The notes beneath the pieces are model-generated. The model did no database searches. It was not told the DNA's origin and saw nothing but the letters and a program-made list of their open reading frames with translations. Of a stretch of DNA of 40,164 bases, positions 620-27,051 are shown one piece after another (the first letter of the stretch is position 1; each line of letters opens with the position of its first letter). The translations under genes and the position numbers were made by a program. The DNA comes from Thiobacillus sp. (GTDB taxonomy: Bacteria > Pseudomonadota > Gammaproteobacteria > Burkholderiales > Thiobacillaceae), in assembly GCA_021166845.1 (NCBI GenBank), contig JAJPEP010000103.1, forward strand, positions 1-40,164, in the 5' to 3' direction.

Positions 620-1168
620 TCACCTGGCTGAGGCGGGAGGCAAAGGTGAGCGGTACTGCATCGCCTGGCCGGATCCATCCAGTTCCCCGGACTTAAGTGG
701 CGGCCGTGCCGGCGGCGACGCGTAAAACACCTTGTCCTTTTCGTCACCCTTGATTCCATGGCGCTGGCTGCGCTTGAACGGATGGTTCATCAACACCAGT
801 CCATCCTGTTGCGCCGCCTCGCGCTGCGCGATTTCGAGGTCGCCCGCAGCCTGTCCATTCCATGGCATGACATAGTAGGCTGGGGCCTCTCGGTCCGGCA
901 GCTGCAGCCAGAGATAAATCGCCTGGCCGTCTTTCGGGCGCACCGCCAGCACCACCGCCTCCTTGGCCTGGGAGAAATATTCCTGATCGATCGGTTTGGG
1001 CTGGGACAGCAACTGGTTGAAGAGGTACAGCGCCAAGCCGACCGAACCCGCCAAATAAAGCAGCGAGGTCAGGCGGAAGGCGTGGCTGGTGGTGGTCCTC
1101 ATCGAAAACAGGGCGTAGCCCAGGGAAACGATGAGATAAGCGACCAGCAGGGCGAGCAGGTTGTTCAT
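620..1168 (-). CDS. Uncharacterised two-helix membrane protein, last gene of the thiocyanate operon
   Basis: I do not recognise this 182-residue protein. Two hydrophobic segments (about residues 3-21, LLALLVAYLIVSLGYALF, and 33-52) are followed by a soluble domain with the aromatic stretches AIYLWLQLP and APAYYVMPW, and a Pro/Ser-rich tail. Its start overlaps the stop of the preceding gene as ATGA (1165-1168), so translation is probably coupled. It travels with an ExbB/TolQ-like channel and a one-helix protein. A partner in that membrane complex is a reasonable guess, not shown by sequence. The ORF is real by position and coupling; its function is unknown. Confidence 0.7.
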   Translation of the reverse strand: MNNLLALLVAYLIVSLGYALFSMRTTTSHAFRLTSLLYLAGSVGLALYLFNQLLSQPKPIDQEYFSQAKEAVVLAVRPKDGQAIYLWLQLPDREAPAYYVMPWNGQAAGDLEIAQREAAQQDGLVLMNHPFKRSQRHGIKGDEKDKVFYASPPARPPLKSGELDGSGQAMQYRSPLPPASAR

Positions 1169-1818
1169 TTGTAGGCATCGAAGTTGTAGCCGCCGGGCGC
1201 GTCGGTGCGCAGGGCCTTCGGCGCAGCGTTGACGCTGGAAGCAAGCAGTTCGCCCTGGTCGTCCAGCTTGAAGCGGAACACGGTCTGCTCCTCGCCCGGC
1301 TTGCGCAGGACCGCATCGGACACCAGTATTTGCCGGCTTACGCGTGAACTGCCGCTCGGCTTGATGGTGGACACCAGAACCTTGACCTTGAGCGGCCAGA
1401 CGTTGGCACGGTTGAAATACATGTGCAGGTTGACGGCGTATTCGCCTGCCGGGATGTCGCGCGAGAAAGCGTTCTCGTAGTTCAGATTGGAAGCGTCGTT
1501 GCGGAAGCCGATATCATCCCGCAGCAGGTTGAAGACCTGGCCGCCCAGGTTGGAGTAGCCGACGGCAACGTCGCCCGGAGCCTGCACCCAGAGGTCGACG
1601 TCGGCGTCGACACGATCGTCCCAGCGCGCTTCCACGATCACGTTTCCGGGCGCCGATACCTCCTTGCTCTCTTCCTGCTTTTGCTTGGGCGGATTGATGT
1701 GGGGCAGCATGATAACGACCAGCGACACAAACCCGAGCAGCGCGAGGGTGATGACGTCGCGGAAAACGACGTCGGAATCGTCCTCGGCTTCGGCATCGAA
1801 TGAAAAATGCTTGCTCAT
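1165..1818 (-). CDS. Single-helix membrane protein with periplasmic beta-rich domain, ExbD-like topology
   Basis: The protein has 217 residues. An acidic cytoplasmic N-terminus (MSKHFSFDAEAEDDSDVVFRD) leads into one helix (about 23-41, ITLALLGFVSLVVIMLP). A periplasmic domain of about 170 residues follows, with the stretches RWDDRVDADVDLWVQAPGD, VGYSNLGGQVFNLLRDD and AGEYAVNLHMYF. The N-in, single-helix layout directly after an ExbB/TolQ-like gene (9-bp gap) mirrors ExbD/TolR/MotB partners. The periplasmic domain is not a recognisable ExbD or OmpA-like fold, however. An aspartate in or next to the helix would be needed for a proton channel; the nearest is D21 at its cytoplasmic edge. Function is unknown; I infer a proton-driven complex. 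Confidence 0.75.
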   Translation of the reverse strand: MSKHFSFDAEAEDDSDVVFRDVITLALLGFVSLVVIMLPHINPPKQKQEESKEVSAPGNVIVEARWDDRVDADVDLWVQAPGDVAVGYSNLGGQVFNLLRDDIGFRNDASNLNYENAFSRDIPAGEYAVNLHMYFNRANVWPLKVKVLVSTIKPSGSSRVSRQILVSDAVLRKPGEEQTVFRFKLDDQGELLASSVNAAPKALRTDAPGGYNFDAYK

Positions 1819-1827
1819 CGCGGACGG

Positions 1828-2427
1828 CTATTCCGTGTCCGCCGATTCGAGGATGGCGGCGACCAGGTTGACCACTCCGGTACGCAACATATTGTAGTTG
1901 GCGTTCAGCCACAGGTTGGTGATGGCCCCCGCCAGGGTCGTGTAGAGCGCAACGCCCATGCCGTTGGTGAGCGCGCCCACCAGCTTGCCGACCTGGGCAG
2001 CATCGCCCACTGCATTGGCCGAAATGTTGGTCAGCACCATAATGAAGCCGATCACCGTGCCGAGCAGACCCAGCATGACCAGGCTGGACGAGATGTACTT
2101 GACGAAGGAGATGCGCGCAAACAGCTTGATCTCGAACGCTTCCTTCACGCTTTCACGGTCGGCCTGCCTGCTCTTGTCGGCAAATTCCTTGAGCTTGCCC
2201 TTGCCGCCGCGCTTGACGTAGTTGAGTTCGCGGCTCGTCTTCCAAACGCGAAACCCGCACAGCACCATGCCATACAGGAACAGGCCGGCGATCACGTACA
2301 CGATGTAGGAGCTGTCCGCCAGAAAAACGGGCTCGACCATGCCGTTCATGTGGAACACCCACAGAATGGCGAAGCCCACCATGTTCAAGGCCAGCCAGCG
2401 ATAGAAAAGCAGGTAGTCCCATTTCAT
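1828..2427 (-). CDS. MotA/TolQ/ExbB-family proton-channel protein
   Basis: The protein has 199 residues, starting at MKWDYLLFYRW with GAGGAA upstream; the longer in-frame start at 2562 would overlap upstream sequence and lacks a ribosome site. It has four hydrophobic segments. A cytoplasmic basic loop (RVWKTSRELNYVKRGGKGK) precedes the family core: a helix pair around LVMLGLLGTVIGFIMVL and then GALTNGMGVALYTTLAGAI, the classic ExbB/TolQ/MotA pattern. These proteins form the pentameric stator of proton-motive-force machines. It is separate from the TonB-linked ExbB at 10949-11701 and is followed by an ExbD-like partner. What it energises here is unknown. Its place in the thiocyanate operon suggests handling of sulfur, copper or the cell envelope. 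Confidence 0.85.
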   Translation of the reverse strand: MKWDYLLFYRWLALNMVGFAILWVFHMNGMVEPVFLADSSYIVYVIAGLFLYGMVLCGFRVWKTSRELNYVKRGGKGKLKEFADKSRQADRESVKEAFEIKLFARISFVKYISSSLVMLGLLGTVIGFIMVLTNISANAVGDAAQVGKLVGALTNGMGVALYTTLAGAITNLWLNANYNMLRTGVVNLVAAILESADTE

Positions 2428-2558
2428 TCTTGTGATTCCTCGGACAACAACATCGGCTTGAGCTTCATAAGCGGCCCGGGGCCGGGCGCGAGTCAACGCA
2501 ATTGGGGCCCAGGGCGCATCCCGCCATCCGGTTTTGCCGTTGGCGCAGGAAACCCGTC

Positions 2559-2891
2559 TCAATGATCGGCGGTGAGCGGATAGCCGAGCTGCGCCATGCC
2601 GAGAAACGCCTGTTCGCTGGCCACAGCAGCGTGTTTGACCACCGCCGCGCTATCCTGCTTTTTGGCCGCCTCCTGGGCCTGGGCCAATGCACTGGCGGCC
2701 GTCGTCCACAACGCGCTCTTGCTCTTTGCCATATCGACGATGAACACCGCTCCCGACAGCGCCTGCGACGCCTCGGCCGTCAATGCTGAACCCGCAGCGC
2801 TTTCCGCCGCATACACACCGGAGCCCATGGCGCCGCCAAGCAGAAAAATCCCTCCGGCCATCATCCGGGCTACATTTTGAATTGCCTTCAT
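2559..2891 (-). CDS. SoxK/SAXB-like small periplasmic protein (SoxXA partner)
   Basis: The protein has 110 residues, starting at MKAIQNVARMM with AAGGAG just upstream; the longer ORF start at 2942 would run into soxA. It has a signal peptide ending near VYA/AES, then an alanine-rich helical domain in which SALWTTAASALAQAQEAA is followed by a second helix (AVVKHAAVASEQAFLGMA). Small helical proteins of this kind next to soxXA (SoxK, also called SoxXA-binding protein) stabilise the SoxAX complex and raise its activity. Family assignment rests on size, the W-x-x-A helix pattern and position 47 bp after soxA; sequence conservation in this family is low. Another helical adaptor remains possible. 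Confidence 0.65.
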   Translation of the reverse strand: MKAIQNVARMMAGGIFLLGGAMGSGVYAAESAAGSALTAEASQALSGAVFIVDMAKSKSALWTTAASALAQAQEAAKKQDSAAVVKHAAVASEQAFLGMAQLGYPLTADH

Positions 2892-2938: not shown

Positions 2939-3772
2939 TCATTTCCGGAATACCGAAGCCTTGAGCGGCAGACCATTGCTCAGGTAGCTGTGGTAGTACT
3001 CGAGGTTGTTGTATTCCTCGCCGCCGATTTCAAGCGGTGTCATGCGTACCATCTGGTTGCACGCGGCATAACGGCGCTGCAGGGTGAACAGCGTGTATTC
3101 GCCGCCGCGGAATGCCGGCCAGTGGGTGGCCTGGCCAGGCGCCATCGACAGGTATTCGGTGCGCAGGACGTTGCCGACGTTGCTGATATGGCAACCCGCG
3201 CAGGAAAAATTCAGCTGGCCGCGGCGCTGGTGAAAGAACCGCTTGCCTGCTTCATAGGCTTCCAGGGCATCCTTGCCTTCCACCTTGACGTTCATCCTCA
3301 TGCCGTCGGACAAGGTGCGGGCATGGGCCGTCAGCAGCCCCATGGTGTTCATGTCGCTGTGCTTGTAGGCCGCTTCGCCATTTTCCGTTCGGCACTGGTT
3401 GAGTGCCATTTCGAACGTCACCACTTTTTTTGCGGCGGCATCGAACAACGGGTAATTGCCAGCGACATTCTTCCCCCCGCGCGGGAAGCAGTCCGCGTAG
3501 CGCTTGCCGTTTTTGAACGGGGTTTCCCACAATTTGGCGCCTTTCTCGATTTCGGCGTCGTAAGGCGGGAAAGCCATGATGGCGTCGTATTGAGCTTTGG
3601 CATCGGGGCTGAATACCAGTGCGCCATGCACGTAATCCTCGAATTTGATAGCGGGATATTTTTTCTGCACCGCTTTTACGACTTCCAGACGATGTTTTTC
3701 CGGTGCGGCCTGCGCATTCACGGCGACTGCGAGCCATCCCAGGCAGGACATGATCCAAATCAGTTTCTTCAT
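2939..3772 (-). CDS. soxA: SoxA, L-cysteine S-thiosulfotransferase haem subunit
   Basis: The protein has 277 residues with a signal peptide (MKKLIWIMSCLGWLAVAVNAQA). One c-type haem site, CAGCH, is at 191-195. The SoxA active-site cysteine (persulfide ligand) is C238 in RRYAACNQM, followed by the family ending NLEYYHSYLSNGLPLKASVF. C95 and C127 probably form the disulfide that replaces the first haem in mono-haem SoxA proteins. SoxAX joins a sulfane or thiosulfate group to a carrier cysteine and passes two electrons to its haems. Here it lies with soxX and a soxK-like gene downstream of a thiocyanate dehydrogenase. It may therefore act on the sulfur released from thiocyanate, or as electron acceptor; both are inferences. 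GGAGAAAGAA precedes the start. Confidence 0.93.
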   Translation of the reverse strand: MKKLIWIMSCLGWLAVAVNAQAAPEKHRLEVVKAVQKKYPAIKFEDYVHGALVFSPDAKAQYDAIMAFPPYDAEIEKGAKLWETPFKNGKRYADCFPRGGKNVAGNYPLFDAAAKKVVTFEMALNQCRTENGEAAYKHSDMNTMGLLTAHARTLSDGMRMNVKVEGKDALEAYEAGKRFFHQRRGQLNFSCAGCHISNVGNVLRTEYLSMAPGQATHWPAFRGGEYTLFTLQRRYAACNQMVRMTPLEIGGEEYNNLEYYHSYLSNGLPLKASVFRK

Positions 3773-3809: not shown

Positions 3810-4178
3810 TTACAGCCCGTAGATGTAATCCACTACTTTGTTGATCTCGTCATCGCTCAGAATCTTGTGCTTGCCGAAGGGGGGCATGAGGCTGTCGGCA
3901 TTGGCTTTTGCCGGGTCCCAGAGTTGGGCGTAGAGCTTTGCGCGATCCGGAAACCGTTCCTTCATGTTGATCACCGGCGGGGCGATGTTGGTGCTGGTAA
4001 CAGCTTTTGAATCGCCAGGAATGGCGTGACAGGCCAGGCAATTGCCCTTGCGGTTGTCGAAAGCCAGTTCCTGCCCGGTGGGCGCCTTGGCTTCATCCGC
4101 ACACACCGTCTGCGCAAAGCCGGCAATCAGAATCAGGCATGCGCCGGCAGTGCGGATGCTCGTGGGAAATTGATACAT
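3810..4178 (-). CDS. soxX: SoxX, monohaem cytochrome c subunit of SoxAX
   Basis: The protein has 122 residues from MYQFPTSIRT, chosen because AAGGAG lies 6-7 bases upstream; the in-frame extension to 4232 lacks this and would overlap the previous gene. A signal peptide ends near VCADEA. The haem-binding motif is CLACH (47-51) and the probable axial ligand is M98 in SLMPPFGKH, followed by the SoxX ending LSDDEINKVVDYIYGL. It receives electrons from SoxA and donates to the respiratory chain. The order soxX-soxA-soxK, without soxYZ in the same transcript, is unusual for a standard sox operon and suits a second, thiocyanate-specific SoxAX. Confidence 0.92.
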   Translation of the reverse strand: MYQFPTSIRTAGACLILIAGFAQTVCADEAKAPTGQELAFDNRKGNCLACHAIPGDSKAVTSTNIAPPVINMKERFPDRAKLYAQLWDPAKANADSLMPPFGKHKILSDDEINKVVDYIYGL

Positions 4179-4216
4179 ATCTGCTCCTTGGTGTATCCAG
4201 GTGTCGCACCCGGGTG

Positions 4217-4876
4217 TTACTGAAAAATGCACGGTCCCGGATTCATGTCCGGGCAGGTGGTGCTGGCATCGGTCCGCATTCCGGACACCTCTGCCTCACT
4301 AAAATCGGCCGCATGCAGATTCGCGCCCGAAAAGTTCGTGTCCGCCATTCCGGAAAACAGAAAACGGGCCTCGTATAAATCCGCATTCTTGAAATTTGCG
4401 CCATGCAGATTCGCGCCTTCCAGATTGGCGCGCTCCAGCAGAGCGCCGCTAAAATCGACCCCGGTCAGGTCGGCCTGGGTGAAGCTCGTGCGGTTGGCAT
4501 TCACCTGGGACAGGTTGCTGCCCTGCAGATCCGCGCCGCTCATTACCGTCCCGCCGATCACGGCCCCGCTCAAGTCGACGCCAATCAACCGGGCCTTGGA
4601 CAGATTTGCGCCGATAAGAAATGCGCCGCGCAGATCGGCACGCGACAGGTCCGCCTGCCGCAAATCGGCGCCGAGAAGGTTTTGCCCCGCCATACTGACG
4701 CCCCTCAGGTCACAGGCAACGCAGCTATTGGTGGTAATCAAGCGGTTCCGGTTTTCTGTCTGGGCTGCGTTTGGCTGGGCATAGACCGTGGATATCGAAA
4801 ACACAGCCATCAGGCCAAACGTTGTTGCCAGCGGCAGCAGGAGGAAATCGGCTTGGGTCTTCATGAACACGTTCAT
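4217..4876 (-). CDS. Exported pentapeptide-repeat protein
   Basis: The protein has 219 residues. A hydrophobic N-terminus (about 11-33, FLLLPLATTFGLMAVFSISTVYA) is a likely signal peptide. Next comes a cysteine pair, CVACDL, that opens a run of about 25 A(D/N)Lxx pentapeptides (for example ADLRQADLSRADLRG and ANLEGANLHGANF) forming a right-handed beta-helix. The tail TCPDMNPGPCIF supplies two further cysteines, so the helix ends may be capped by disulfides or bind a metal. Pentapeptide proteins have no single function. Periplasmic placement and the SoxX/thiocyanate dehydrogenase context are the only hints, perhaps a scaffold. The start may instead be M at 4864. Neither start has a strong ribosome site. 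Confidence 0.88.
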   Translation of the reverse strand: MNVFMKTQADFLLLPLATTFGLMAVFSISTVYAQPNAAQTENRNRLITTNSCVACDLRGVSMAGQNLLGADLRQADLSRADLRGAFLIGANLSKARLIGVDLSGAVIGGTVMSGADLQGSNLSQVNANRTSFTQADLTGVDFSGALLERANLEGANLHGANFKNADLYEARFLFSGMADTNFSGANLHAADFSEAEVSGMRTDASTTCPDMNPGPCIFQ

Positions 4877-4908: not shown

Positions 4909-5346
4909 TTAATCCAATGAAAATCGCGTCTGCAGCGGCGCTTCGTCATTCATGGTGATCACCAGTACCAGCTTTGTTCCTTTGCGTGGCTTGATACGTG
5001 CGTCCTTGATCGACAATTCGTTGTTGCCGGTCGGTGCCATATACACAGAGAATGCGTCGTTCCCAGAGATGACCCGCAGGATGCCAACCGCCCCTTTGGT
5101 CGACTGTGGCGTGTCGCCATGATCAGTGACCCATACGTGTGCTTCGCCGTCTTTCATCACCAGTTCAAAGTGATACATCTCCACCATGCGCAACATGCCT
5201 CCATGGGCACCTTTGACTGTTGCCAGATACTCGTTGCTGTGCGCCCATGTCGGCATCGGCAGACTAAACAAAGCGATCAGGAATATGCCGACCAGCGGTC
5301 GGACCGCATATGCCAAATGGCTCGGATTCAGAATCCTGAAATTCAT
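4909..5346 (-). CDS. Small periplasmic protein with His/Met-rich segment, candidate copper carrier
   Basis: The protein has 145 residues with an N-terminal signal (hydrophobic 17-36, cleavage near TWA/HSN) and AAGGAG before the start. After cleavage the mature chain opens HSNEYLATVKGAHGGMLRMVEMYHFE, a His/Met-rich stretch suited to periplasmic Cu(I) or Cu(II). A beta-rich domain of about 90 residues follows (HVWVTDHGDTPQ, TGNNELSIKDARIKPRKG). The layout recalls domains found at the C-terminus of heavy-metal adaptors and in small copper chaperones. It sits directly after the thiocyanate dehydrogenase, a three-copper enzyme, so a role in metal delivery is attractive. I do not recognise a named family, and metal binding is inferred from composition only. 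Confidence 0.75.
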   Translation of the reverse strand: MNFRILNPSHLAYAVRPLVGIFLIALFSLPMPTWAHSNEYLATVKGAHGGMLRMVEMYHFELVMKDGEAHVWVTDHGDTPQSTKGAVGILRVISGNDAFSVYMAPTGNNELSIKDARIKPRKGTKLVLVITMNDEAPLQTRFSLD

Positions 5347-5414: not shown

Positions 5415-6881
5415 TTACACCGAGGTGCTGCGGGAGTATTTCATGCCCTCCCAGTTCTCAGGGACCACGACGTGGTCGTGCATGCCGCCAGGGCAAGGCA
5501 GCCGCGCCTCGATCTTGTCGGTCTCGATGTTGAGAATTACAAGCCCCGACTGGCCCGCCTGGTGTCCGCTGTACACCGTGGTCATGTACTTGCCGTCCAC
5601 GGTACAGTCGCAGGTATGCGGATCCGGCCCCGTATCCCACTTGGCAACGACTTTCCAGGTCTTGGCATCCACTTTGCAGATGTAGCCGTTATTGGGCTTG
5701 CGCGCCCACATGGTGAAGTAGACGAAGCGGGAATCCGGAACGTTGCCCATGTGCAGCGGCAGGTACTTGGTTCCGAAGCCCTCGACGAAGGTTTCCTTTT
5801 TCCACTTGTTCGGGTTTTCATCTGTCGAGCGGTAGACAGCAATGTTGTTCTGCAGCACGTTGTTGCAGGCGACGAAGTATTCGCCACTCGTGATGAAACC
5901 GGCTTCGTGAAGAGGCGTCAGCACGGAAGGCACGGCGAAGGTCCAGGTAAAGCCGGTCTGCTTCACCAGAGGGAAGTTGTCCGGAGAACCCTTCGCGGTC
6001 GACAGCAGGGCCACCACTTCCCAGGTACGGGTGTCGATGATGGCGCAGCAGCCAAGGCGGCGGATCAGGATGGCGCCGAACGGCAACGTGGGATGCCAGG
6101 TGAATGCATCCACGAACACCGCGGTGGGGTCGGCCGGCATCAGTTCTTCGCCCAGCATCGCTTCGTGAGTCGTCTTCATGCCCTTGCGGCCCACGTAATC
6201 GAACTTGCCCGTGGTGGCATCGGGGAAGACATGGCTGATGTTGAGTTGCCGGGCGACGGGATCATAGTCAGCGCGGAACGCCTTGATGATCTTCGGATTG
6301 TCGCTAACGTCCGTGATCAGCACCATGTCCTTCTGGCCATCCGCGAACGCCACGTATTTGTTGGCGTTTTCGCCCACGCCGATGGAGACGTGCACGCCCA
6401 GCGACATGCCGGTAGTGATACCGATGTCGTTGACCACGGAAATGGAGTTCTGCTTGCCGCTGCCGTCGTAGCGCATCTTGAACATCTTGAAGTCACCGCG
6501 GTTACGCCACTCCGGAGAGTTCTCGTTGACGTAGGGCGATGCCGGCGGCTGCATGGTCTGGTAGAAGTCGAAGCCCTTGTAGGGATCGGCCGACGGCATG
6601 GCCGCGATGTGGTGGGGAATAGGCATGTCGATGCCGTGCAGGCCGTAGGAATACCAGGCCAGCGTCTCGGGCACGGACAAATCCATGGCCTGCACATAGC
6701 CGCCGTACTTGCTCGGCAGCAGCGCAATGCTGCCCTTGAATTTGGCGAATAACTCAGCCTGCGCTTCGCCGATCGGATTGTGTACAGCCGAAAACGCGCT
6801 GCCTGAGCCAAGCAGGCCTGCCGTTCCGGCAACACCGGCAGCGAACGCGCCCTGCATGAACTGCCTTCTGTTGATACTCAT
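5415..6881 (-). CDS. Thiocyanate dehydrogenase (copper beta-propeller, Tat-exported)
   Basis: The protein has 488 residues. The twin-arginine signal NRRQFMQGAF (4-13) runs to a cleavage site near AFSA/V, and AAGGAG precedes the ATG. The remainder is a beta-propeller resembling nitrous oxide reductase but lacking its CuA domain. Candidate copper and active-site residues are K58, H90/H91, H164, E246, H325, H377, H422 and H468. From memory, the Thioalkalivibrio enzyme uses K103, H135, H206, E288, H381, H438, H482 and H528. The gaps K-H 32, H-E 82 and H482-H528 46 match exactly and the others are within 3-14. The reaction is SCN- + H2O to OCN- + S0 + 2H+ + 2e-, in the periplasm. SoxA/SoxX, copper handling and a sigma-54 regulator nearby agree with known clusters. 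I see no cyanase in the window. Alternative: another copper oxidoreductase of the same fold. Confidence 0.87.
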   Translation of the reverse strand: MSINRRQFMQGAFAAGVAGTAGLLGSGSAFSAVHNPIGEAQAELFAKFKGSIALLPSKYGGYVQAMDLSVPETLAWYSYGLHGIDMPIPHHIAAMPSADPYKGFDFYQTMQPPASPYVNENSPEWRNRGDFKMFKMRYDGSGKQNSISVVNDIGITTGMSLGVHVSIGVGENANKYVAFADGQKDMVLITDVSDNPKIIKAFRADYDPVARQLNISHVFPDATTGKFDYVGRKGMKTTHEAMLGEELMPADPTAVFVDAFTWHPTLPFGAILIRRLGCCAIIDTRTWEVVALLSTAKGSPDNFPLVKQTGFTWTFAVPSVLTPLHEAGFITSGEYFVACNNVLQNNIAVYRSTDENPNKWKKETFVEGFGTKYLPLHMGNVPDSRFVYFTMWARKPNNGYICKVDAKTWKVVAKWDTGPDPHTCDCTVDGKYMTTVYSGHQAGQSGLVILNIETDKIEARLPCPGGMHDHVVVPENWEGMKYSRSTSV

Positions 6882-6919: not shown

Positions 6920-7555
6920 TCAGATGTCGCCCTTTTTCCAATCTTGCGGACCCACGAATACCTTCTCAACCACTCCATTTTTGTCAATCACAAACGACGT
7001 CGGCAAACCGCGAATACCGAGTCGGGTGGAAACACCCTCCGCGCTCAGTGCATCGTTGGGCGCAACGTACAGCGAGGTGGTCTTCAGGCTCTGTTCCTTC
7101 TTGAGGACATGCATGGTTTTCACTGAGTTGGGGATGACCGCTTTCGGTCCGCCCATCAGGGCAGCACCCACTGTGTCCGCATTGATGAAAACCACGTTGA
7201 TGCCGCGACCATGCCGCGACGTGAAGTTTTCGATCTTGACCAGCTCGTTTACCGAGATCGGCACCGCAGAGATGAAGAACACAACCATGGAGCGTTTGCC
7301 CTGCACCACCTTGCCAAGATCGACTTTTTCACTATTCATGCCATAGGCATCGAAATCGAGCGGCAGCTTGTTGCCAACCGCCACAGGATCGATGTAGACC
7401 TGTCCACCCACCTGTTCCGCGGTGGGGAAAGTGCCGTCTTTGCTGTCAGCCAGCGCCGTCCCCACGGGCAGAGCCAACAGGCTTGCCAGTGACATAAAAG
7501 TGCATGTGGACTTGATCCGCCCCCTCACTCTATTTTGACTTGCTCGAATTTTCAT
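6920..7555 (-). CDS. Exported thioredoxin-fold protein lacking the CxxC motif, first gene of the operon
   Basis: The protein has 211 residues starting at ATG 7555, supported by GGAGG ten bases upstream; an upstream TTG at 7567 would contain that site. A signal peptide ends near TALA/DS. The fold is TlpA/peroxiredoxin-like: KRSMVVFFISAVPISVNEL stands where FWATWCxxC normally occurs, and RGLPTSFVIDKNGVVEKVFVG carries the cis-proline TxxVID strand. Both active cysteines are replaced (A-V-P-I) and the mature protein has no cysteine, so it cannot do thiol-disulfide exchange. It may be a metal chaperone or structural partner of the dehydrogenase. A sigma-54 promoter at 7662-7676 gives a leader of about 95 bases. 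Confidence 0.85.
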   Translation of the reverse strand: MKIRASQNRVRGRIKSTCTFMSLASLLALPVGTALADSKDGTFPTAEQVGGQVYIDPVAVGNKLPLDFDAYGMNSEKVDLGKVVQGKRSMVVFFISAVPISVNELVKIENFTSRHGRGINVVFINADTVGAALMGGPKAVIPNSVKTMHVLKKEQSLKTTSLYVAPNDALSAEGVSTRLGIRGLPTSFVIDKNGVVEKVFVGPQDWKKGDI

Positions 7556-7633
7556 GTTCGCCTCCAAGAGTTCACCCCATCCTCACTTATGCCGCCCGGA
7601 CGGCGGATACATCCATCACAAACGGATTGAGGG

Positions 7634-7650: not shown

Positions 7651-7661
7651 AGCTACATAAA

Positions 7662-7676
7662 GCATTTAGCGTGCCA
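7662..7676 (-). promoter_or_regulatory. Sigma-54 promoter of the thiocyanate dehydrogenase operon
   Basis: Minus strand TGGCACGCTAAATGC, with GG at 7674-7675 and GC at 7662-7663, exactly ten bases apart. It agrees with the consensus TGGCACG-N4-TTGC except for one T to A. It faces the 7555 start, about 107 bp away. An activator box (7740-7755) lies 64 bp upstream. Confidence 0.75.
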
Positions 7677-8541: not shown

Positions 8542-9918
8542 ATGGATTCCAGATTGAAACACACGCGTTCCGACATGCCCGACGCCGGCCGGCCGAGTGC
8601 GATCCCTACCCCGTTGCGGCGCCTGGTTCGGCTGCGCTGGTTCGAGATTGCCGCCCTGGCGACAGCGCTCCTGATCGCCGGCTACCCGCTGGAAATGACG
8701 CTCCCCTATGGCCCGCTGTGGGGAATCCTCGCCGTGATGGTGTTGCTCAACCTGATGACGCACGGCCAACTGGTCATGACGTCCGCGCCCGCCGGCCGGG
8801 CGGTCCTGGTGCACCTGACGCTCGACGTCCTGACGCTGTCGGCGCTGCTATATTTCACTGGCGGAGCGGTCAACCCCTTCGTTTCACTTTTGCTTGTGCC
8901 GCTCATTATCGCGGCCACCACGCTGCCGCTCATCGAGGTAGGCATCATGACCGCCGTCGCCCTGGGGGCGTATTCGATCCTCATGGTCGTCAACGTCGCG
9001 CTGCCGCCTGTCGTGCATGGACCGCTCGACTGGCTGGACACGGCGATACTCGCGCTGCTGGGCGCTGACCTCGGGCATACGGCGCACTCCAGGGGCCACG
9101 GCTTCGGGCTTCATGTCTTCGGTATGTGGCTCAACTTTGTGATCAGCGCGACCTTGATCGCTCTCTTCATCGCCCGGATGGCCGCGGCCCTGCGGCGCCG
9201 CGATGTCGCCCTGTCAAGGGCGAGAGAGGATGCGCTGCGCAACGAGCAGATTCTTGCCCTCGGCACCCTCGCCGCGGGCGCCGCGCATCGCCTGGGCACG
9301 CCGCTGACGACGATGGCCGTGATTCTCAATGAGCGGCGCATCGCCCATTCCGGCGATGCCGCGCTGGATGCCGACATGGCGCTATTGGAACAACTGGTCC
9401 GCAACTGCAAGACCATCCTCTCCGAGATTCTTTGTTCCGCCGGCCAGGTGCGCAGCGAGAGCGGCACGCTAGTCGCGCTGGACCAGCTGGTCGCCAGGAC
9501 TCTTGAGCAATGGCACGTCATCCGTCCGTCTGCCGGCATCGAGCTCGATCTCGACACCGGCACGCCGGCCCCCGACATTCTTGCGGATCGGACGCTGGAA
9601 CAGGCCCTGCTGAATCTGCTCGACAATGCCGCCGACGCCTCGCCTGTCGGCTTGGCCCTGCGTTGCAGGTGGAGCAGCCGCGAGGGCGTGCTTGAAATCC
9701 TCGACCGGGGACGTGGCATCGACGCCACGATTGCCCAGCGTATCGGACAGGCCTTTTTCTCGACCAAGAAGGCGGGCGGCGGCATCGGCATCGGCATGTT
9801 TCTGTCCAACGCCACCATCGAACGCTTCGGCGGCAGGGTGGAGCTTTCCAACCGGCCGGAGGGCGGGGCGTGCACCCGTATCTGTCTGCCTCTTGCCGTA
9901 TCCGCATCCGCGAGCTGA
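8542..9918 (+). CDS. regB: RegB/PrrB-type redox sensor histidine kinase
   Basis: The protein has 458 residues. Six hydrophobic segments span about 30-220. They include GGAVNPF (about 107-113), the conserved quinone-binding box of RegB, and a conserved LLVPLIIAATTLP helix after it. The H-box is AAGAAHRLGTPL with the phosphorylated histidine at H249. The redox-active cysteine of the family is present as C289 in LVRNCKTIL. The C-terminal ATPase has NLLDNAADAS, DRGRGI and GGIGIGMFLS. RegB senses ubiquinone pool and oxygen state and phosphorylates RegA, regulating carbon fixation and respiration in autotrophs. The response regulator gene follows after 6 bp. The ribosome site is weak (GGAG 15 bases upstream); M at 8575 is an alternative start. 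Confidence 0.92.
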   Translation: MDSRLKHTRSDMPDAGRPSAIPTPLRRLVRLRWFEIAALATALLIAGYPLEMTLPYGPLWGILAVMVLLNLMTHGQLVMTSAPAGRAVLVHLTLDVLTLSALLYFTGGAVNPFVSLLLVPLIIAATTLPLIEVGIMTAVALGAYSILMVVNVALPPVVHGPLDWLDTAILALLGADLGHTAHSRGHGFGLHVFGMWLNFVISATLIALFIARMAAALRRRDVALSRAREDALRNEQILALGTLAAGAAHRLGTPLTTMAVILNERRIAHSGDAALDADMALLEQLVRNCKTILSEILCSAGQVRSESGTLVALDQLVARTLEQWHVIRPSAGIELDLDTGTPAPDILADRTLEQALLNLLDNAADASPVGLALRCRWSSREGVLEILDRGRGIDATIAQRIGQAFFSTKKAGGGIGIGMFLSNATIERFGGRVELSNRPEGGACTRICLPLAVSASAS

Positions 9919-9924
9919 CGACCC

Positions 9925-10482
9925 ATGGAACACCTCGACGACAACGACAACCAGCCGAGCCTGATGCTGGTCGATGACGATGACACCCTGCGCGAAGTGC
10001 TGGGGCGCGCGCTCGCCCGCCGGGGCTTCGTCGTCACCGAGGCGGCCAGCGCCGAGGAAGCCTGCGAACTGGCGGAAGCGCGCCAGCCCGAATATGCCGT
10101 GGTCGACCTCAAGCTTCCGGGGGTTTCCGGCCTGGAACTCGTCAGGCGAATGGTGGGGCTGGATGCGGGCACTCGCATCGTCGTCCTGACCGGCTATGCC
10201 AGCATCACGACGGCAGTCGAGTCCATCAAGCTCGGCGCCGTCCACTATCTGGCCAAGCCGGCCAATACCGACGAGATCGTCTCGGCGCTCGGCCGTCAGA
10301 AAGGCGTGGCCGAGATCCCCATCGCCACTGCCCACCTTCCGGTCGGGCGGGTGGAATGGGAACACATCCAGAAGGTTCTCACTGAAAACGAGGGAAACAT
10401 TTCCAAGACGGCCCGTGCGCTCAGCATGCATCGTCGCACTCTGCAGCGCAAACTGCTCAAGCGCCCCCCGCGCGCAGCCTGA
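9925..10482 (+). CDS. regA: RegA/PrrA-type response regulator
   Basis: The protein has 185 residues. The receiver domain starts LMLVDDDDTLREVLGRAL and the phospho-acceptor is D61 in AVVDLKLPG, with T/K partners in VLTGYASITTAV and LAKPAN. A proline-containing linker leads to a Fis-type helix-turn-helix (GNISKTARALSMHRRTLQRKL). Length and the linker-HTH arrangement are typical of RegA/PrrA/ActR. It is paired with the RegB-type kinase just upstream. Which genes it controls cannot be read from the window. It runs toward exbD, and the 42-bp gap between the two stop codons contains a poly-G tract and no obvious terminator. Confidence 0.92.
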   Translation: MEHLDDNDNQPSLMLVDDDDTLREVLGRALARRGFVVTEAASAEEACELAEARQPEYAVVDLKLPGVSGLELVRRMVGLDAGTRIVVLTGYASITTAVESIKLGAVHYLAKPANTDEIVSALGRQKGVAEIPIATAHLPVGRVEWEHIQKVLTENEGNISKTARALSMHRRTLQRKLLKRPPRAA

Positions 10483-10524: not shown

Positions 10525-10944
10525 CTAGTTTCGCGCCGGATCGGTCACGAATCCGATGCGCACCAAGCCGGCCCTGGCGGCGGACGACATCACCTGAGCC
10601 ACCGCCTCATAATGCACATGGCGGTCGGCGCGGATGTGCAGCTCGGGTTGCGGCTGTTTCTTCGCTTCCACGGCAAAGCGTGCCGCCAGTTCCGGCCGGG
10701 TCACCAGCGCGCCGTTCCAGAAAAGGAAGCCATTCTCGCGTATGCCGAACTCGATATGCTCGGGCTGGGTGATGTTGGGCGTACTGCTGGCCTTGGGCAG
10801 ATCGATCTTGACGGAATGGGTGAGCAGGGGCGCGGTGATGATGAAGATCACCAGCAGCACCAGCATCACATCCACCAGCGGCACCACGTTGATTTCCGCC
10901 ATCGGGCCTTGATGGCGTCGCGGGTCGAAGCTTCCCATGGCCAT
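10525..10944 (-). CDS. exbD: ExbD, TonB-system membrane protein
   Basis: The protein has 139 residues. The cytoplasmic MAMGSFDPRRHQGPMAEINVVPLVDVMLVLLVIFIIT is the ExbD signature: the NVVPLVDVMLVLL helix carries the essential aspartate (about D25). A periplasmic alpha/beta domain ends in the recycling-type motif HYEAVAQVMSSAARAGLVRIGFVTD. It converts proton flow to TonB movement with ExbB. It follows exbB by 4 bp. A broken copy of its 3' end lies at 8177-8281. Confidence 0.95.
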   Translation of the reverse strand: MAMGSFDPRRHQGPMAEINVVPLVDVMLVLLVIFIITAPLLTHSVKIDLPKASSTPNITQPEHIEFGIRENGFLFWNGALVTRPELAARFAVEAKKQPQPELHIRADRHVHYEAVAQVMSSAARAGLVRIGFVTDPARN

Positions 10945-10948
10945 GTCG

Positions 10949-11701
10949 TTACTCCTTCGCGAATGTGCGCTGTTCCAGTTTCACTACAGGACGCGGCGGG
11001 CGTCCCTCGCCTGCCGAACTGTTGGCTTTTTCGCCCACGGTAATCACCGTGTACAGGTCGTGCGCGAAGGCATCGAGCTTGGCCAGCCAGACGCGGTTGC
11101 GCCGTGTGAACGCGTTGTAGGCAAGCACCGCGGGGATGGCGACCGCCAGACCGACGGCGGTCATGATGAGTGCCTCGCCGACAGGGCCCGACACCTTGTC
11201 CAGCGTACCCTGGCCCGACAAACCGATGTTGACCAGCGCGTGATAAATCCCCCAGACGGTGCCGAACAAACCGATGTAGGGCGCGGCGGAGCCGGCCGAG
11301 GCCATCATGGTGAGGCCTTGCTCCACCCGCATCGCCTCCTGGTCGATGCCGTTGCGCAGCAGACGCGTGAGGAACTCGCCCAGCCCGCCGGCCGCGGCCA
11401 GTCTTTGCATGCCATGCCGATGGTTGTTATGGGCGGCCTCAAGCGCTTGGTGCGCCAGTTCGGCGAATGCATTGTCCACTGGCTGCTGTCGCAGTGCGGC
11501 GCCCAGGTCCAGCAGCGAATCGGCTGCCCAGAACTGTTTGAGGAAAGCTTCGGCGCGGCGCCCCGCCAAGTAATTTGACAGCGCCTTGGTCGCAATCAGA
11601 TACCAGCTCGCCACCGAGAGTGAGAGCAACAGCAACAGCACGATGCGTCCGAGCGTGTCGGTCTGCGAGAGGAAGTGGGCAAAGCCCAGGCTGTTTTCCA
11701 T
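10949..11701 (-). CDS. exbB: ExbB, TonB-system proton channel
   Basis: The protein has 250 residues from MENSLGFAHFLSQTD, with AAGGACG upstream inside the end of tonB; the longer ORF to 11965 only reads antisense through tonB. It has three membrane helices (near residues 17-37, about 140 and about 185) and the conserved GSAAPYIGLFGTVWGIYHAL and GEALIMTAVGLAVAIPAVLAYN blocks. It works with ExbD and TonB encoded on either side. It lies 2 bp from tonB, so the genes form an operon with the receptor. Confidence 0.95.
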   Translation of the reverse strand: MENSLGFAHFLSQTDTLGRIVLLLLLSLSVASWYLIATKALSNYLAGRRAEAFLKQFWAADSLLDLGAALRQQPVDNAFAELAHQALEAAHNNHRHGMQRLAAAGGLGEFLTRLLRNGIDQEAMRVEQGLTMMASAGSAAPYIGLFGTVWGIYHALVNIGLSGQGTLDKVSGPVGEALIMTAVGLAVAIPAVLAYNAFTRRNRVWLAKLDAFAHDLYTVITVGEKANSSAGEGRPPRPVVKLEQRTFAKE

Positions 11702-11703
11702 GA

Positions 11704-12399
11704 TCAACGTCCTTCGAGGGTGAAATTGAATGGCTGCGTCGCCAGCGAGCGGACGGCCTGGCCCTCGCGTTGCGCCGGGTGACAGCGCCAGGTTCTGACT
11801 ACCGCGAGCGCGGCGGCATCGAGCCGGCTGAAACCGCTGCTGGCAAGCACCTGCGCCGCGCTCACCCGTCCCGTTTCGTCCAGTTCCACCCGTAGCACGA
11901 CCTTGCCGGTTTCGCCCAGTCTGCGTGCCATGGGCGGATAGGAGGGCGGAGTGCGTTCCGGGCAAGCCACCGCCAGTTCCGACGCCAGCGTCACCGGCCC
12001 GGCTGGCATGGGCGGCGGTGCGACCGGCGCGAGCGGCTCGGCTGGCGCCGGTTCGGCTTCAGGTGCGGGCGCGATCGCCGGCGCCGGCGGTGGGACCGGC
12101 TCGACCGCCTCCAGCGGCGAGGTCACCGGCGCTTTGACCGCCAGGTGCCTGTGCGGCGGCTCGACCGGAGGCGGCGCCTTGCGCTTGACCGGCTTGGGCA
12201 CGACCGGCGGCGGAACCACCGCCGGCCGCGGCTTCGGCGGCGGCGGGGTGATGAAATGCACGAACAGCGTCACCGCCTCGGCCGGCGGCGGAATCACCCG
12301 CGCGCTCCACAGCGCATAGAACACCACGCCGTGCAAGGCCAGCACGACGAGCACGCCCGCGGCTCGATTCCATCCCAGGCGCGCCCCTCTCCCGTTCAT
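11704..12399 (-). CDS. tonB: TonB, energy-transducing protein
   Basis: The protein has 231 residues. It has one N-terminal helix (about 13-33, AGVLVVLALHGVVFYALW) and a long Pro/Lys and then Pro/Ala-rich spacer (TPPPPKPRPAVVPPPVVPKP onward). The C-terminal domain contains PSYPPMARRLGETGKVVLRVELDETGRV and ends RTWRCHPAQREGQAVRS. It links the inner-membrane proton channel to the outer-membrane receptor encoded just upstream (36-bp gap). The spacer is richer in Ala/Glu in its second half than usual, which is not a defect. Confidence 0.95.
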   Translation of the reverse strand: MNGRGARLGWNRAAGVLVVLALHGVVFYALWSARVIPPPAEAVTLFVHFITPPPPKPRPAVVPPPVVPKPVKRKAPPPVEPPHRHLAVKAPVTSPLEAVEPVPPPAPAIAPAPEAEPAPAEPLAPVAPPPMPAGPVTLASELAVACPERTPPSYPPMARRLGETGKVVLRVELDETGRVSAAQVLASSGFSRLDAAALAVVRTWRCHPAQREGQAVRSLATQPFNFTLEGR

Positions 12400-12435
12400 T
12401 GCGCTTACCGTTGCCTCACCACAGCGTGTTCACGC

Positions 12436-14589
12436 TCACCATTTCGCCTGCAGCCCGACGACCAGAGAACGCGGCAGGCCGACCGTATACGTCGGCGCGG
12501 CTGCGGTGCCCTCGGCGGTTTCGGCGTAGCGCTCGTCGAGCAGGTTGCTGATGCTGCCGTAGACTTCCATGCCCTTGCCGAACAGATAATTGGCGCGCAG
12601 GTTGACCAGGCTATGGCCGTCGTATTTGCCGGTATTGGCGGCGTCCAGCCAGTAACTGCCGAGCCTGAACCATTCGAGCTGGAAGCGCCCGCCGTTGAGG
12701 TAGCCCGGCGAATAGCCGAGGCGGGTATTGGCGATCAGACGCGGCGCGGTTTCCATTTCGTTGCCGCTGTAGTCGGCGGTTCCCGACACGATCCAGGTCT
12801 CGTAGGTGTGTTTGGCGTACGACAGGCTGGCGTCGAGATCCCAGTCGGTCGCCAGCGGCAGGCCGAGGCCGAGTTCGACGCCGCGATGCAGCGTCTCGCC
12901 GGCGTTTACCACGGTGCGCTGGGTGGTGACCGGATCGGTGTAGCTGACGATGTCGTCCTTCTTCGTCATGTGATAGACCGACGCCTCGTAGCGCAGCGTG
13001 CCGGACTTGCCGCGCAGGCCCAGCTCATAGTTGTCGACAATCACCGGCTTCAGGTCCAGCAGCGACTCGGCGGCGGCTTGCGCCTTGATCGCGGTCGATT
13101 CCCGGCTGCCGCGGAACACCTGGCTTTCAGACGGGGTGCGGAATGAATTGCTGTAGGCCGCGAAGCCATTCAGCTCATCGTTGAATGCGTAGGCCGCGCC
13201 CAGTTTCGGGCCCCAGTGGCTGTATCCGACCTGCGTGCTGGCGGCATGGCCATACCAGCCGCTGCCCGGGAAAGCTCCCGCTGCGCCTTGGGTCGCGCCG
13301 GCGACACCACCGTTGAACTGGTTGTCGTAGTCGTACTGCATGTCGTCGTAACGGAGGCCGCCGTTCAGGCGCAGTTTGTCGGTAAGCGAGATTTCGCCGT
13401 GGACGTAGGGCGAGATTCCGCGGAAGGTCACGTCATAGTCGTAGATCTTGACCGGATCGACCGCGGTGTTGAGGCTGTAGGTGGTGCCGCCGTAGGGATT
13501 GGTCGTCTTGCCGAGGCTGAGCGAATCCTCGTCGCGCGATCCCGGGCTGTAGTCAAAATCGAGGCCGACGATGAGCCGGGCCCGCATCGGCTCGAAGTCG
13601 CGGCGGTATTTGCCGAGAAAGCCGAACGACTGGTTTTTCGTGACGTACGAACTGGGGTCGTAGCCGACGCTCCAGTTGGGAATGATCTCCATGCTGTTGT
13701 CGCGAACGTACGGGGTGATCGACAGCAGCGCGTTCGCGGTCTCCTTTTCGTAGGCCGTCGACAGCCGGAACGCGTCGACCTGGCGGTAGGAAAACGGCAC
13801 GTTGTTGGTGCGCGGCGCGGCGTCGAATTCGCCCTGGCTCAGCCTGCCGACATGCTGCTGGTCGACCTTGGAAAACGACACGATGGTTTTCAGCAACGCC
13901 TCGTCGTCGAGCACGCGATCCCAGCGCGCGGTGCCGGCCTGGCGGTCGTAGCCGGCGTCTTCCTGCCAGCCGTCGGTACGGGTCAGGTTCAGGCTGGCGC
14001 GCCAGGCATCGTCGCCTTTCGAATTGCCGCCGCTCATCAGCACGCGGCCCCAGCCATGCGATCCGGCTTCGCCGGTCAGTTCGAATTCAGGCTTCCGCGG
14101 TGGCGTACGGGTGAGGACGTTGATCGTTCCGCCGATCGCATCCGAGCCATAGAGCGCGCTGCCCGGCCCTTTCATCACCTCGATGCCGCCCGACTGCGGA
14201 ACGTTGATTTCGTAGAGCGCGTTGTGGTTGAAGAAGCCGGTGGAGCGGGTCGGAATGCCGTCTTCGAGATAGAGATAGACCGCGCTGGTCGTCAGCGGCT
14301 GGCGGATCGCGGTCGAATGCCCCTCGCCCGACAAGTTGCTGACCCAGACGCCGGGGACCTGGTTGAGGATGTCCTTCGGGTGGGCGGGCCGGGTTTCGCG
14401 CAGGGTCTGGTCCTTGATGATGCCGACCGTGGCCGGCGTCTCGCTCAGCAGCTCGCCTTCGCGGGTGCCAGTCACGGTCATTTCCGGGAGCGCCGCTTCG
14501 GCGGGCGAGGATACGCCGGGCTCCGCCGCCCAGACCGGGGATGTACACAACACGCCAGCCAGCACGAGCGGAATAGGATTCGGTTTCAT
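12436..14589 (-). CDS. TonB-dependent outer-membrane receptor, substrate unknown (copper suggested by context)
   Basis: The protein has 717 residues from MKPNPIPLVL, with CGGAGACC upstream. It has a signal peptide to VWAAE and a TonB-box-like EMTVTGTREGELL. The plug domain includes HPKDILNQVPGVWVSN, LYLEDGIPTRSTGF and IEVMKGPGSALYGSDAIGGTINV. A 22-strand barrel ends GLQAKW with the terminal aromatic residue. The FNHNALYEIN loop after the plug mark recurs in receptors of the copper/haem-like group. No siderophore genes accompany it. Downstream are tonB, exbB and exbD. Upstream are an exported CxxC thioredoxin and a Cys/His-rich propeller, so metal uptake, perhaps copper for the dehydrogenase and SOD, is my inference. 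Confidence 0.9.
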   Translation of the reverse strand: MKPNPIPLVLAGVLCTSPVWAAEPGVSSPAEAALPEMTVTGTREGELLSETPATVGIIKDQTLRETRPAHPKDILNQVPGVWVSNLSGEGHSTAIRQPLTTSAVYLYLEDGIPTRSTGFFNHNALYEINVPQSGGIEVMKGPGSALYGSDAIGGTINVLTRTPPRKPEFELTGEAGSHGWGRVLMSGGNSKGDDAWRASLNLTRTDGWQEDAGYDRQAGTARWDRVLDDEALLKTIVSFSKVDQQHVGRLSQGEFDAAPRTNNVPFSYRQVDAFRLSTAYEKETANALLSITPYVRDNSMEIIPNWSVGYDPSSYVTKNQSFGFLGKYRRDFEPMRARLIVGLDFDYSPGSRDEDSLSLGKTTNPYGGTTYSLNTAVDPVKIYDYDVTFRGISPYVHGEISLTDKLRLNGGLRYDDMQYDYDNQFNGGVAGATQGAAGAFPGSGWYGHAASTQVGYSHWGPKLGAAYAFNDELNGFAAYSNSFRTPSESQVFRGSRESTAIKAQAAAESLLDLKPVIVDNYELGLRGKSGTLRYEASVYHMTKKDDIVSYTDPVTTQRTVVNAGETLHRGVELGLGLPLATDWDLDASLSYAKHTYETWIVSGTADYSGNEMETAPRLIANTRLGYSPGYLNGGRFQLEWFRLGSYWLDAANTGKYDGHSLVNLRANYLFGKGMEVYGSISNLLDERYAETAEGTAAAPTYTVGLPRSLVVGLQAKW

Positions 14590-14609
14590 GCGGTCTCCGT
14601 TGTCTTCGT

Positions 14610-15098
14610 TCAATGAGCCAATTGGTGTCTTGCCAGCCATGCGCGCAGCCGTTTTTCGCTCAGTACGCCGACCACGGTTTCGTGCTGATGGCGGGCGTCA
14701 TAGAGGTAGGTGCGCGGCAGCTCGCCGTACCAGGACGGATCGATCGCGTGGCGCAGCCGCTCGGGAATCGGGTCGTCGAACACCCAGCTGTCGACGCGCG
14801 ACAGGCCGAGGCCGGCCAGGGTTTTCCGCATCGCCGGGGCGAAGTCGGGCGTGTCGGTGGCGACCAGCACCAGCGGCAATTGCTTGTGCGTTCTCGCCAG
14901 CTTGCCCATCAGGGTCAGCTCGGCGATGCAGTAGCTGCATTCGTTCACCGACCACAGGTTGAGGATGAACGGCCGCCCGGCGTATTGCGCCTTGATGGTT
15001 TCGAGGCTGGCGGCGGTGAACGGCGCCGGTTCGCGCGCCGCGGCCGGCGCGGAAAGAGCCAGCGCCGCCAGCACCCCCAGCATTAAACGCATGGTCAT
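14610..15098 (-). CDS. Exported thioredoxin-fold protein with CSYC active site
   Basis: The protein has 162 residues with a signal peptide to about AAAREP. In ILNLWSVNECSYCIAELTLM the CxxC is at 54-57, followed by the ELPRTYLYD cis-proline loop. TlpA/ResA-like proteins of this kind reduce cysteines in the periplasm, for example in copper-site assembly or cytochrome c maturation. Its start overlaps the stop of the sialidase-fold gene as ATGA, and the receptor gene begins 20 bp downstream, so it belongs to this metal/TonB unit. The upstream propeller has a CECC motif that could be its substrate (inference). Confidence 0.88.
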   Translation of the reverse strand: MTMRLMLGVLAALALSAPAAAREPAPFTAASLETIKAQYAGRPFILNLWSVNECSYCIAELTLMGKLARTHKQLPLVLVATDTPDFAPAMRKTLAGLGLSRVDSWVFDDPIPERLRHAIDPSWYGELPRTYLYDARHQHETVVGVLSEKRLRAWLARHQLAH

Positions 15099-16327: not shown

Positions 16328-16371
16328 GGCGAGCCTCTTAAACGGTGAATGCAGCGTATGGGCCGGAGGAA

Positions 16372-16950: not shown

Positions 16951-16990
16951 GGAGACTTCCTTGGGTTTATTGAGCGACATGTTTCTTCAT

Positions 16991-17005
16991 GTTCCAAAAT
17001 GGAAT
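16991..17005. promoter_or_regulatory. Imperfect activator-type dyad in the DUF302-sodC gap
   Basis: GTTCC-AAAAT-GGAAT has the same 5-base spacing as the boxes at 495, 7741 and 27228, but with GGAAT in place of GAAAC. ATGTTTC lies just before it. It could be a secondary binding site; the evidence is weak. Confidence 0.3.
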
Positions 17006-17013
17006 GAAGCGTT

Positions 17014-17520: not shown

Positions 17521-17579
17521 GCTTCCGTCTCCTTTTGTGTTTCAAAATGGTGGGCTCAAGGTCCCTGCCATCCAGGAAA

Positions 17580-17594
17580 GCAAGCCCCGTACCA
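17580..17594 (-). promoter_or_regulatory. Sigma-54 promoter of the DUF302-sodC unit
   Basis: Minus strand TGGTACGGGGCTTGC, with GG at 17592-17593 and GC at 17580-17581. It matches TGGCACG-N4-TTGC at all positions but one and is followed by TTT. I found no clear CGTTCC-N5-GAAAC box upstream; isolated GAAAC (17597) and GTTTC (17539) half-sites flank it. Confidence 0.7.
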
Positions 17595-27001: not shown

Positions 27002-27036
27002 TTTTTTCAATCGTGAAAATTGATATACAGCGATAA

Positions 27037-27051
27037 GCAAGCCCTGTGCCA
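27037..27051 (-). promoter_or_regulatory. Sigma-54 promoter of the efflux-sensor operon
   Basis: Minus strand TGGCACAGGGCTTGC, the best match in the window to TGGCACG-N4-TTGC, with GG at 27049-27050 and GC at 27037-27038. The predicted start is near 27025, in front of the first adaptor gene. Confidence 0.78.

Follow-up and report, generated by a model that had tools for sequence, protein, structure and literature searches.

A thiocyanate dehydrogenase family member in Thiobacillus, its recurring sigma-54-like sites, copper-related neighbours and linked SoxXA

A 40,164-nucleotide stretch of Thiobacillus sp. DNA (GCA_021166845.1, contig JAJPEP010000103.1, positions 1 to 40,164 of the forward strand; hereafter the window) carries a member of the thiocyanate dehydrogenase (TcDH) family. 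Its open reading frame at 5415-6881 has 488 codons and an ATG start and lies on the minus strand. A first-pass annotation had given the frame and its length correctly, with no strand; its assignment to the TcDH family is now backed by sequence and fold, by the active-site residues, by phylogeny and by a neighbourhood of the published type. The host, described there as a betaproteobacterium, indeed belongs to this group, in the sulfur-oxidising genus Thiobacillus.

We consider it likely that the window encodes a Thiobacillus TcDH of the neutrophilic type, with a sigma-54 regulon, a copper supply and a linked SoxXA which takes the sulfur. A membrane kinase and a sigma-54 activator would switch on three operons: (i) a cysteine-less redoxin, TcDH, a histidine-rich protein, a pentapeptide protein, SoxX, SoxA and a candidate SoxAX-binding protein (SAXB); (ii) the genes DUF302-SodC-BNR-TlpA-TonB receptor-TonB-ExbB-ExbD, for copper uptake and protection; and (iii) CusB2-CusB1-CusA-kinase-activator. 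TcDH would most likely split thiocyanate into cyanate and sulfur, and the linked SoxXA would take up this sulfur, or compounds derived from it, for SoxYZ, perhaps together with the electrons. The sulfur hand-over to SoxXA is the least certain step.

The protein had been described as Tat-exported. Its leader, MSINRRQFM, contains a twin arginine and scores slightly under the cut-offs of both Tat models (Pfam, 16.4 bits against 22.7; NCBIfam, 15.9 against 16.7), so that export is presumed rather than assured. In the Pfam scan this weak signal stands alone, with no match to an enzyme model. A phmmer search of the PDB returned nine distinct sequences at E <= 1e-3 (best 6.8e-81), all from TcDH entries. 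Some are named merely ‘twin-arginine translocation signal domain-containing protein’, and the entry titles give the TcDH of Pelomicrobium methylotrophicum or Thioalkalivibrio paradoxus. Identity to the Thioalkalivibrio and Pelomicrobium enzymes is 36-39% over the aligned part. The proposed shortfall of 60 residues holds against the 548-residue T. paradoxus chain, where it mostly reflects an N-terminal extension of T. paradoxus and two short loops, but the Pelomicrobium enzyme has 489 residues.

The active site is fully retained. Thirteen residues of the T. paradoxus enzyme (TpTcDH), taken from the Fig. 4 legend of PMC6504805, were mapped through an alignment (A1), and all 13 are identical in the window protein: K58, H90, H91, Q111, H164, E240, D258, H325, H377, H422, H468, D469 and R484. 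TpTcDH K103, H135, H206 and H381 correspond to K58, H90, H164 and H325, while H437, H482 and H528 correspond to H377, H422 and H468; these seven had all been picked out beforehand. The eighth residue proposed at that stage, E246, has to be replaced: the published glutamate, E288, aligns with E240, six residues away, and E246, though conserved too, is absent from the published list. A scan of genome contigs with A1 gave 49 family loci; it used two peptide patterns from A1 and is thus not exhaustive. Alignment A2 combines the window with 43 of these and omits L039 (frameshifted), L040 (partial) and the near-duplicates L018, L021, L038 and L063. Across its 44 rows the active-site positions are invariant, except that H422 is replaced by Gln in 11 rows and that one match stops before R484.

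An AlphaFold2 model from the 44-row alignment shows a propeller fold with a mean pLDDT of 86.4 and a pTM of 0.86; residues 1-32 and 116-124 fall under pLDDT 50. Foldseek ranks 1-20 against the PDB are all TcDH (TM 0.84-0.87 by query, 0.88-0.91 by target), followed at rank 21 by NirN (0.48/0.50). From this match to crystal structures, the residues listed above probably converge on one site. The protein is a putative copper enzyme: a trinuclear site and the conversion of thiocyanate to cyanate and sulfur are predicted. That it represents another copper-propeller family, such as lactonase-type nitrous oxide reductase (L-NosZ), has a negligible probability. A weak NCBIfam match to L-NosZ exists (12.9 bits, E 0.029), but the cut-off is 700 bits, the TcDH of Thioalkalivibrio thiocyanoxidans obtains a similar score (13.3 bits), and no fold other than TcDH comes close.

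In a tree of 46 rows (the 44 of A2 and two PDB chains), the family divides into two groups supported at 100/100 each, clade A with 21 rows and clade B with 25. Their stems measure 1.34 and 0.96, or about 2.3 changes per column between the clades. Clade A comprises the window, Thiobacillus and its kin, Thiohalobacter, Guyparkeria, Paracoccus thiocyanatus, Amaricoccus, Pseudaminobacter, Rhodoplanes, Afipia and a Nevskiaceae MAG. The assayed TcDHs, from which the window protein is separated by ~2.3 changes per site, belong to clade B along with proteins of other betaproteobacteria, Nitrospirota, Planctomycetota and Melainabacteria. Identity to the window protein is 76-95% among clade A rows, which come from three proteobacterial classes, with the Nevskiaceae row as an exception (60%). 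Such high identity across classes suggests that the gene moved between them, some inner forks of the tree being poorly supported. Thirty-two window positions differ between the clades in a fixed or nearly fixed manner (gaps counted). Clade A has H239 where clade B has W (TpTcDH W287, next to the glutamate), and L376 where clade B has F (TpTcDH F436).

Thiocyanate is the presumed substrate for all of clade A, and the main doubt about the window enzyme is biochemical. A clade A propeller could apply the same copper chemistry to another small sulfur or cyano compound, with thiocyanate at most a side substrate. We find this improbable: all 21 clade A rows retain the 13 active-site residues, apart from one match ending before R484; named thiocyanate oxidisers are among the hosts; and TcDH reached 2.455% of the protein content index in a Thiohalobacter culture that degraded thiocyanate and accumulated cyanate, according to the text of PMC6934394. 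The same text, however, relates that neither the TcDH purified from Thiohalobacter FOKN1 nor cell-free extracts oxidized thiocyanate, and in the literature searched no in vitro activity is reported for any clade A TcDH. The long branch between the clades and the fixed changes H239 and L376 beside the site would also fit a different substrate, and a natural Gln at H482 in another clade indicates that the fold diversifies.

This Gln occurs in L043, L047-L050, L052, L054-L056, L059 and L060, whose hosts are Melainabacteria/Cyanobacteria MAGs, Planctomycetota and one Nitrospirota. The same His-to-Gln change was made in the PDB mutants 6sji (H482Q) and 8yu5 (H447Q). The Gln-bearing group has a support of 86/82 with L043 and of 100/100 without it, and its TcDH-like members may have another function.

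Three small genes on the minus strand surround TcDH. Upstream lies a redoxin-fold exported protein (6920-7567) whose mature part contains no cysteine; its listed start is TTG, with an ATG four codons in. Downstream are an exported 145-residue protein with conserved H36, H48, H59 and H76 (4909-5346) and an exported pentapeptide-repeat protein with four conserved cysteines (4217-4876). Synteny was followed by tblastn (E <= 1e-6) and family scans, after longest-ORF gene calls had been discarded for picking shadow ORFs in GC-rich loci. A redoxin homologue precedes TcDH in 25/25 loci (L017-L041). The histidine-rich protein follows it in 22 of the 23 loci with downstream sequence (missing in L041) and the pentapeptide protein in 20 (missing in L027, L039 and L041). 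At the same threshold, tblastn detected no homologue of these three proteins in the 24 loci L042-L065. The four cysteines of the pentapeptide protein are kept in 18/18 rows, the four histidines in 17 to 19 of 19 rows. These histidines make copper binding plausible, and the small neighbours might participate in copper delivery. The text of PMC6504805 proposes the redoxin as sulfur acceptor, itself noting the missing motif. Nineteen redoxins lack a cysteine after the FPTA-type motif, and a twentieth, a 59-residue piece, contains none at all. Without a cysteine, the protein cannot hold a sulfur atom on such a residue, which weakens this idea.

Between the redoxin and ExbD, on the plus strand (8542-10482), the window also encodes a histidine kinase, in which only HATPase_c was found, and a short receiver-Fis regulator. 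The gap at this place is only ~0.6 kb in L018, and the pair is thus not a fixed part of the locus.

The copper-related, sigma-54, SoxA and SoxX genes noticed earlier in the vicinity were all recovered by family scans. One operon (10525-17520, minus) encodes DUF302, SodC, a BNR-repeat protein, a TlpA-like protein, a TonB-dependent receptor, TonB, ExbB and ExbD; the order is the same in L018, L023 and L040 and likewise in L022, but without a SodC match. Its likely role is outer-membrane copper acquisition. Distant homologues of the BNR-repeat protein and the TonB receptor (31% and 30%) lie ~8 kb from TcDH in T. thiocyanoxidans (L051). Genes so annotated in this species rise on thiocyanate with logFC of 3.00 and 3.64 (text of PMC5744179), and their role is called unknown in the text of PMC5328954. 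A further minus-strand block contains a CusA-like RND transporter (21732-24842), the membrane-fusion proteins CusB1 (24862-26142) and CusB2 (26132-27040), a membrane histidine kinase (18988-21648; weak MASE3 and GAF, HisKA and HATPase) and a sigma-54-dependent response regulator with receiver, AAA+ and Fis-type HTH domains (17617-18987). Beyond this block, a 1045-residue protein with PP-binding, AMP-binding and acyltransferase domains (30337-33474, minus) is apparently unrelated to the TcDH locus.

Sigma-54-like sites were ranked with a score of our own, using the -24/-12 consensus and a threshold of 13.5. On the minus strand, TGGCAC-N5-ATGCT (7661-7676) lies 109 bp upstream of the redoxin ORF and TGGTAC-N5-TTGCT (17579-17594) 74 bp upstream of DUF302. 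A third site, TGGCAC-N5-TTGCT (27036-27051), is located at, or 11 bp upstream of, the listed cusB2 start; the true start is for this reason probably further downstream. The whole window holds eight sites of score at least 13.5, some within genes, so that the argument is recurrence in place and not any single site. In the matching 250-bp stretch, sites at or above the threshold are present in 12/18 clade A stretches against 45/9000 shuffled ones; the background amounts to 35 sites in 551,870 bases (both strands, 13 loci). Six loci have no site there (L026, L028, L031, L035, L036 and L041), and the positive ones are not independent, as seven of the 12 are Thiobacillus or Hydrogenophilales. Upstream of DUF302, a site occurs at 71-97 bp in each of the seven Thiobacillus stretches scanned with the gene in this orientation (window, L018, L022, L023, L024, L037 and L080). 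These recurring motifs suggest that three operons form a sigma-54 regulon: redoxin-TcDH-SoxXA, SodC/TonB-receptor, and CusBBA with kinase and activator.

Downstream of the pentapeptide gene, still on the minus strand, follow SoxX (3810-4232; NCBIfam 83 bits, cut-off 61) and a SoxA of a TcDH-linked type (2939-3772; 205.4 bits, cut-off 110). This SoxA keeps the CAGCH haem motif and Cys238, presumably the catalytic residue. The SAXB gene (2559-2942) is a candidate only, its match being weak and under the curated cut-off (19.8 bits, E 8e-4, cut-off 95). Family scans and tblastn place a MotA/TolQ/ExbB-like protein and two exported proteins at 620-2562 (minus), which in some Thiobacillus loci belong to this run of genes. 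The exported 217-residue protein at 1165-1818 (minus) is 99% identical in the Thiobacillus MAGs L021 and L022, far better conserved than the adjoining genes.

The contig ends within soxY, of which the 5′ part remains (1-282, minus). Contig C5 has a stretch 99% identical to it, and the start of contig C114 falls within soxZ; the assembly thus seems to break at a repeated soxYZ. Two near-identical soxY genes exist in some other Thiobacillus genomes (e.g. G081, G103 and G094). As a general TcDH neighbour soxY was dismissed, as it is seen in the window only: tblastn with SoxY gave no match in L017-L024, L037, L038, L078 and L080, several of which have short downstream sequence.

The linked SoxA follows TcDH closely within the genus. 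A SoxA at least 73% identical to that of the window is present in 13/13 TcDH-positive Thiobacillus genomes, 12 of which have it on the same contig as TcDH and one (G082) on another, and at full length in 0/43 TcDH-negative genomes. A 54-residue piece of this type, at 93% identity, was found in one of the latter (G077, 82% complete). Other full-length Thiobacillus SoxA proteins are at most 64% identical. In the SoxA tree, nine linked sequences group together (100/100) and six canonical Thiobacillus sequences make up a separate clade (100/99), leaving a recent duplication of the canonical gene unsupported; the sister of the linked clade is the SoxA of G119 (88/76). The presumed catalytic cysteine and the CxxCH motif are kept in 31/31 rows. 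A canonical SoxA is encoded elsewhere in each of six TcDH-positive genomes checked, and in the window's own genome SoxB accompanies it on contig C114.

In the boldest reading, a dedicated SoxXA would accept sulfur, and perhaps electrons, straight from TcDH and pass it into SoxYZ without free sulfur, under one sigma-54 regulon which also builds the copper supply. The SAXB-like protein and the soxY nearby in the same genome could be partners in this relay, which we regard, partners included, as a tentative and rather unlikely proposal. Alternatively, TcDH may be genuine and SoxXA merely carried along with the locus, acting in ordinary thiosulfate oxidation or in electron transfer only; this has a substantial chance of being right, if short of an even one. 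No SoxX- or SoxA-like haem-motif ORF was found in the fetched flanks of L026, L028, L029, L030, L033, L034 and L035, a search in which SoxX/SoxA candidates alone were scanned against NCBIfam, and SoxXA is thus not a constant component of clade A loci. The co-occurrence of SoxA and TcDH could be explained by linkage alone, the 13 genomes are related, and Thioalkalivibrio TcDH is paired instead with cytochrome c552 or flavocytochrome c (texts of PMC9456337 and PMC5744179). Such a passive role fits less well with a separate SoxA clade retained in every TcDH-positive genome despite a canonical SoxA in six of six, and with the retained catalytic cysteine. Other lineages likewise have Sox genes close to TcDH: soxX, Y and Z in L027; soxX, Y, Z and A in L041; soxX and A, with Y and Z both of low identity, in L032; and soxX and A, ~8 kb off, in L031. 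L036 has a truncated SoxX under the cut-off (36.7 bits).

Of 56 Thiobacillus genomes, 13 are TcDH-positive. The genome to which the window belongs (G000) has 115 contigs, 86% completeness and 6% contamination. The locus had been called complete, which is right for the enzyme, copper and regulatory genes; no cyanase was found in this genome at its 86% completeness, and neither was NHase-alpha, the marker of thiocyanate hydrolase. Across the genus cyanase is present in 32/56 and NHase-alpha in 13/56 genomes. Cyanase shows no association with TcDH (9/13 positive versus 23/43 negative genomes, Fisher p 0.36) and was abandoned as a marker; the texts of PMC6504805 and PMC5328954 also call it unreliable. 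The hydrolase as the real thiocyanate enzyme was likewise rejected, NHase-alpha being found neither in G000 nor in nine of the 13 TcDH-positive genomes (4/13 have it). T. thioparus DSM 505 (G106, locus L024) carries both this marker and a clade A TcDH locus. Of ten further clade A hosts, two have NHase-alpha and five have cyanase. Neither was found in Paracoccus thiocyanatus (G121), where TcDH is therefore the sole thiocyanate enzyme found by these markers.

The same genome contains a second TcDH operon (L078, contig C112, 6368 bases) with the order ExbD, redoxin, TcDH, His-rich, pentapeptide, SoxX, SoxA and SAXB candidate. Its TcDH is 93% identical to that of the window, as is a relative in G053; its DNA is ~80% identical to the window and 88.5% to the G053 locus over 2.2 kb. 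L078 is either a real second copy or a strain mixture. Locus L025 (JAIBEL010000026.1), titled ‘Rhizobium sp. isolate B91_maxbin.006’, encodes nearly the TcDH of T. thioparus DSM 505 and is probably mislabelled.

In this Thiobacillus, in whose 86%-complete genome no hydrolase was found, the TcDH locus offers a concrete knock-out candidate. T. denitrificans and Paracoccus thiocyanatus are among the few neutrophiles growing on thiocyanate as electron donor, and T. thioparus DSM 505 is described for its hydrolase (text of PMC5328954); the text of PMC8061750 treats Thiobacillus as a hydrolase user. In a thiocyanate-fed fuel cell whose 16S profile was mainly Thiobacillus, chiefly T. denitrificans, metatranscriptomics inferred the cyanate pathway, and the text reports no TcDH mRNA as identified (PMC6172326). 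A divergent TcDH with no match to a Pfam enzyme model could explain why it was missed. The electron acceptor of Thiohalobacter TcDH is called unknown in the text of PMC6934394, and the linked SoxXA is a testable candidate for the destination of sulfur and electrons outside Thioalkalivibrio. Descriptions of a Thiobacillus TcDH were not found in the text of the thiocyanate dehydrogenase literature searched. The text of PMC6504805 mentions T. thioparus NZ_KB891333.1, the contig of locus L024, and T. denitrificans NC_007404.1 for the CusB pair only. Within that literature, the Thiobacillus TcDH and its linked SoxXA seem little described.

Among known systems, the closest are those of Thiohalobacter thiocyanaticus HRh1 and Guyparkeria sp. 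SCN-R1, whose TcDHs are 81% and 78% identical to that of the window. As in the window, their loci have a cysteine-less redoxin directly upstream of TcDH, a sigma-54 activator, a membrane kinase, CusA and two CusB (text of PMC6504805). By tblastn, the His-rich and pentapeptide genes lie downstream there too; PMC6504805 names six shared upstream genes, and ‘pentapeptide’ does not appear in its text. Unlike these loci, the window adds SoxX-SoxA-SAXB candidate and the DUF302-SodC-BNR-TlpA-TonB-receptor operon, and its Cus/kinase/activator block is ~10 kb from TcDH. The predicted thiocyanate desulfurase of Afipia_64_1782 has 489 residues and is 33.7% identical to 5F75 (text of PMC8061750). A close relative, Afipia 64-13, has a TcDH that shares 76% identity with that of the window and falls in the same clade (100/100), whereas the flanks of its locus (L034) showed no Sox gene. 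With the Thioalkalivibrio and Pelomicrobium enzymes (5F75, 8Q9X and others), the window protein shares the fold and 13/13 active-site residues; these enzymes, however, belong to clade B, with W287 and F436 in place of H239 and L376, and the fetched clade B flanks contain no redoxin, His-rich or pentapeptide gene. The enzyme type is already known; least described in this system are the linked SoxXA and the likely sigma-54 regulon.
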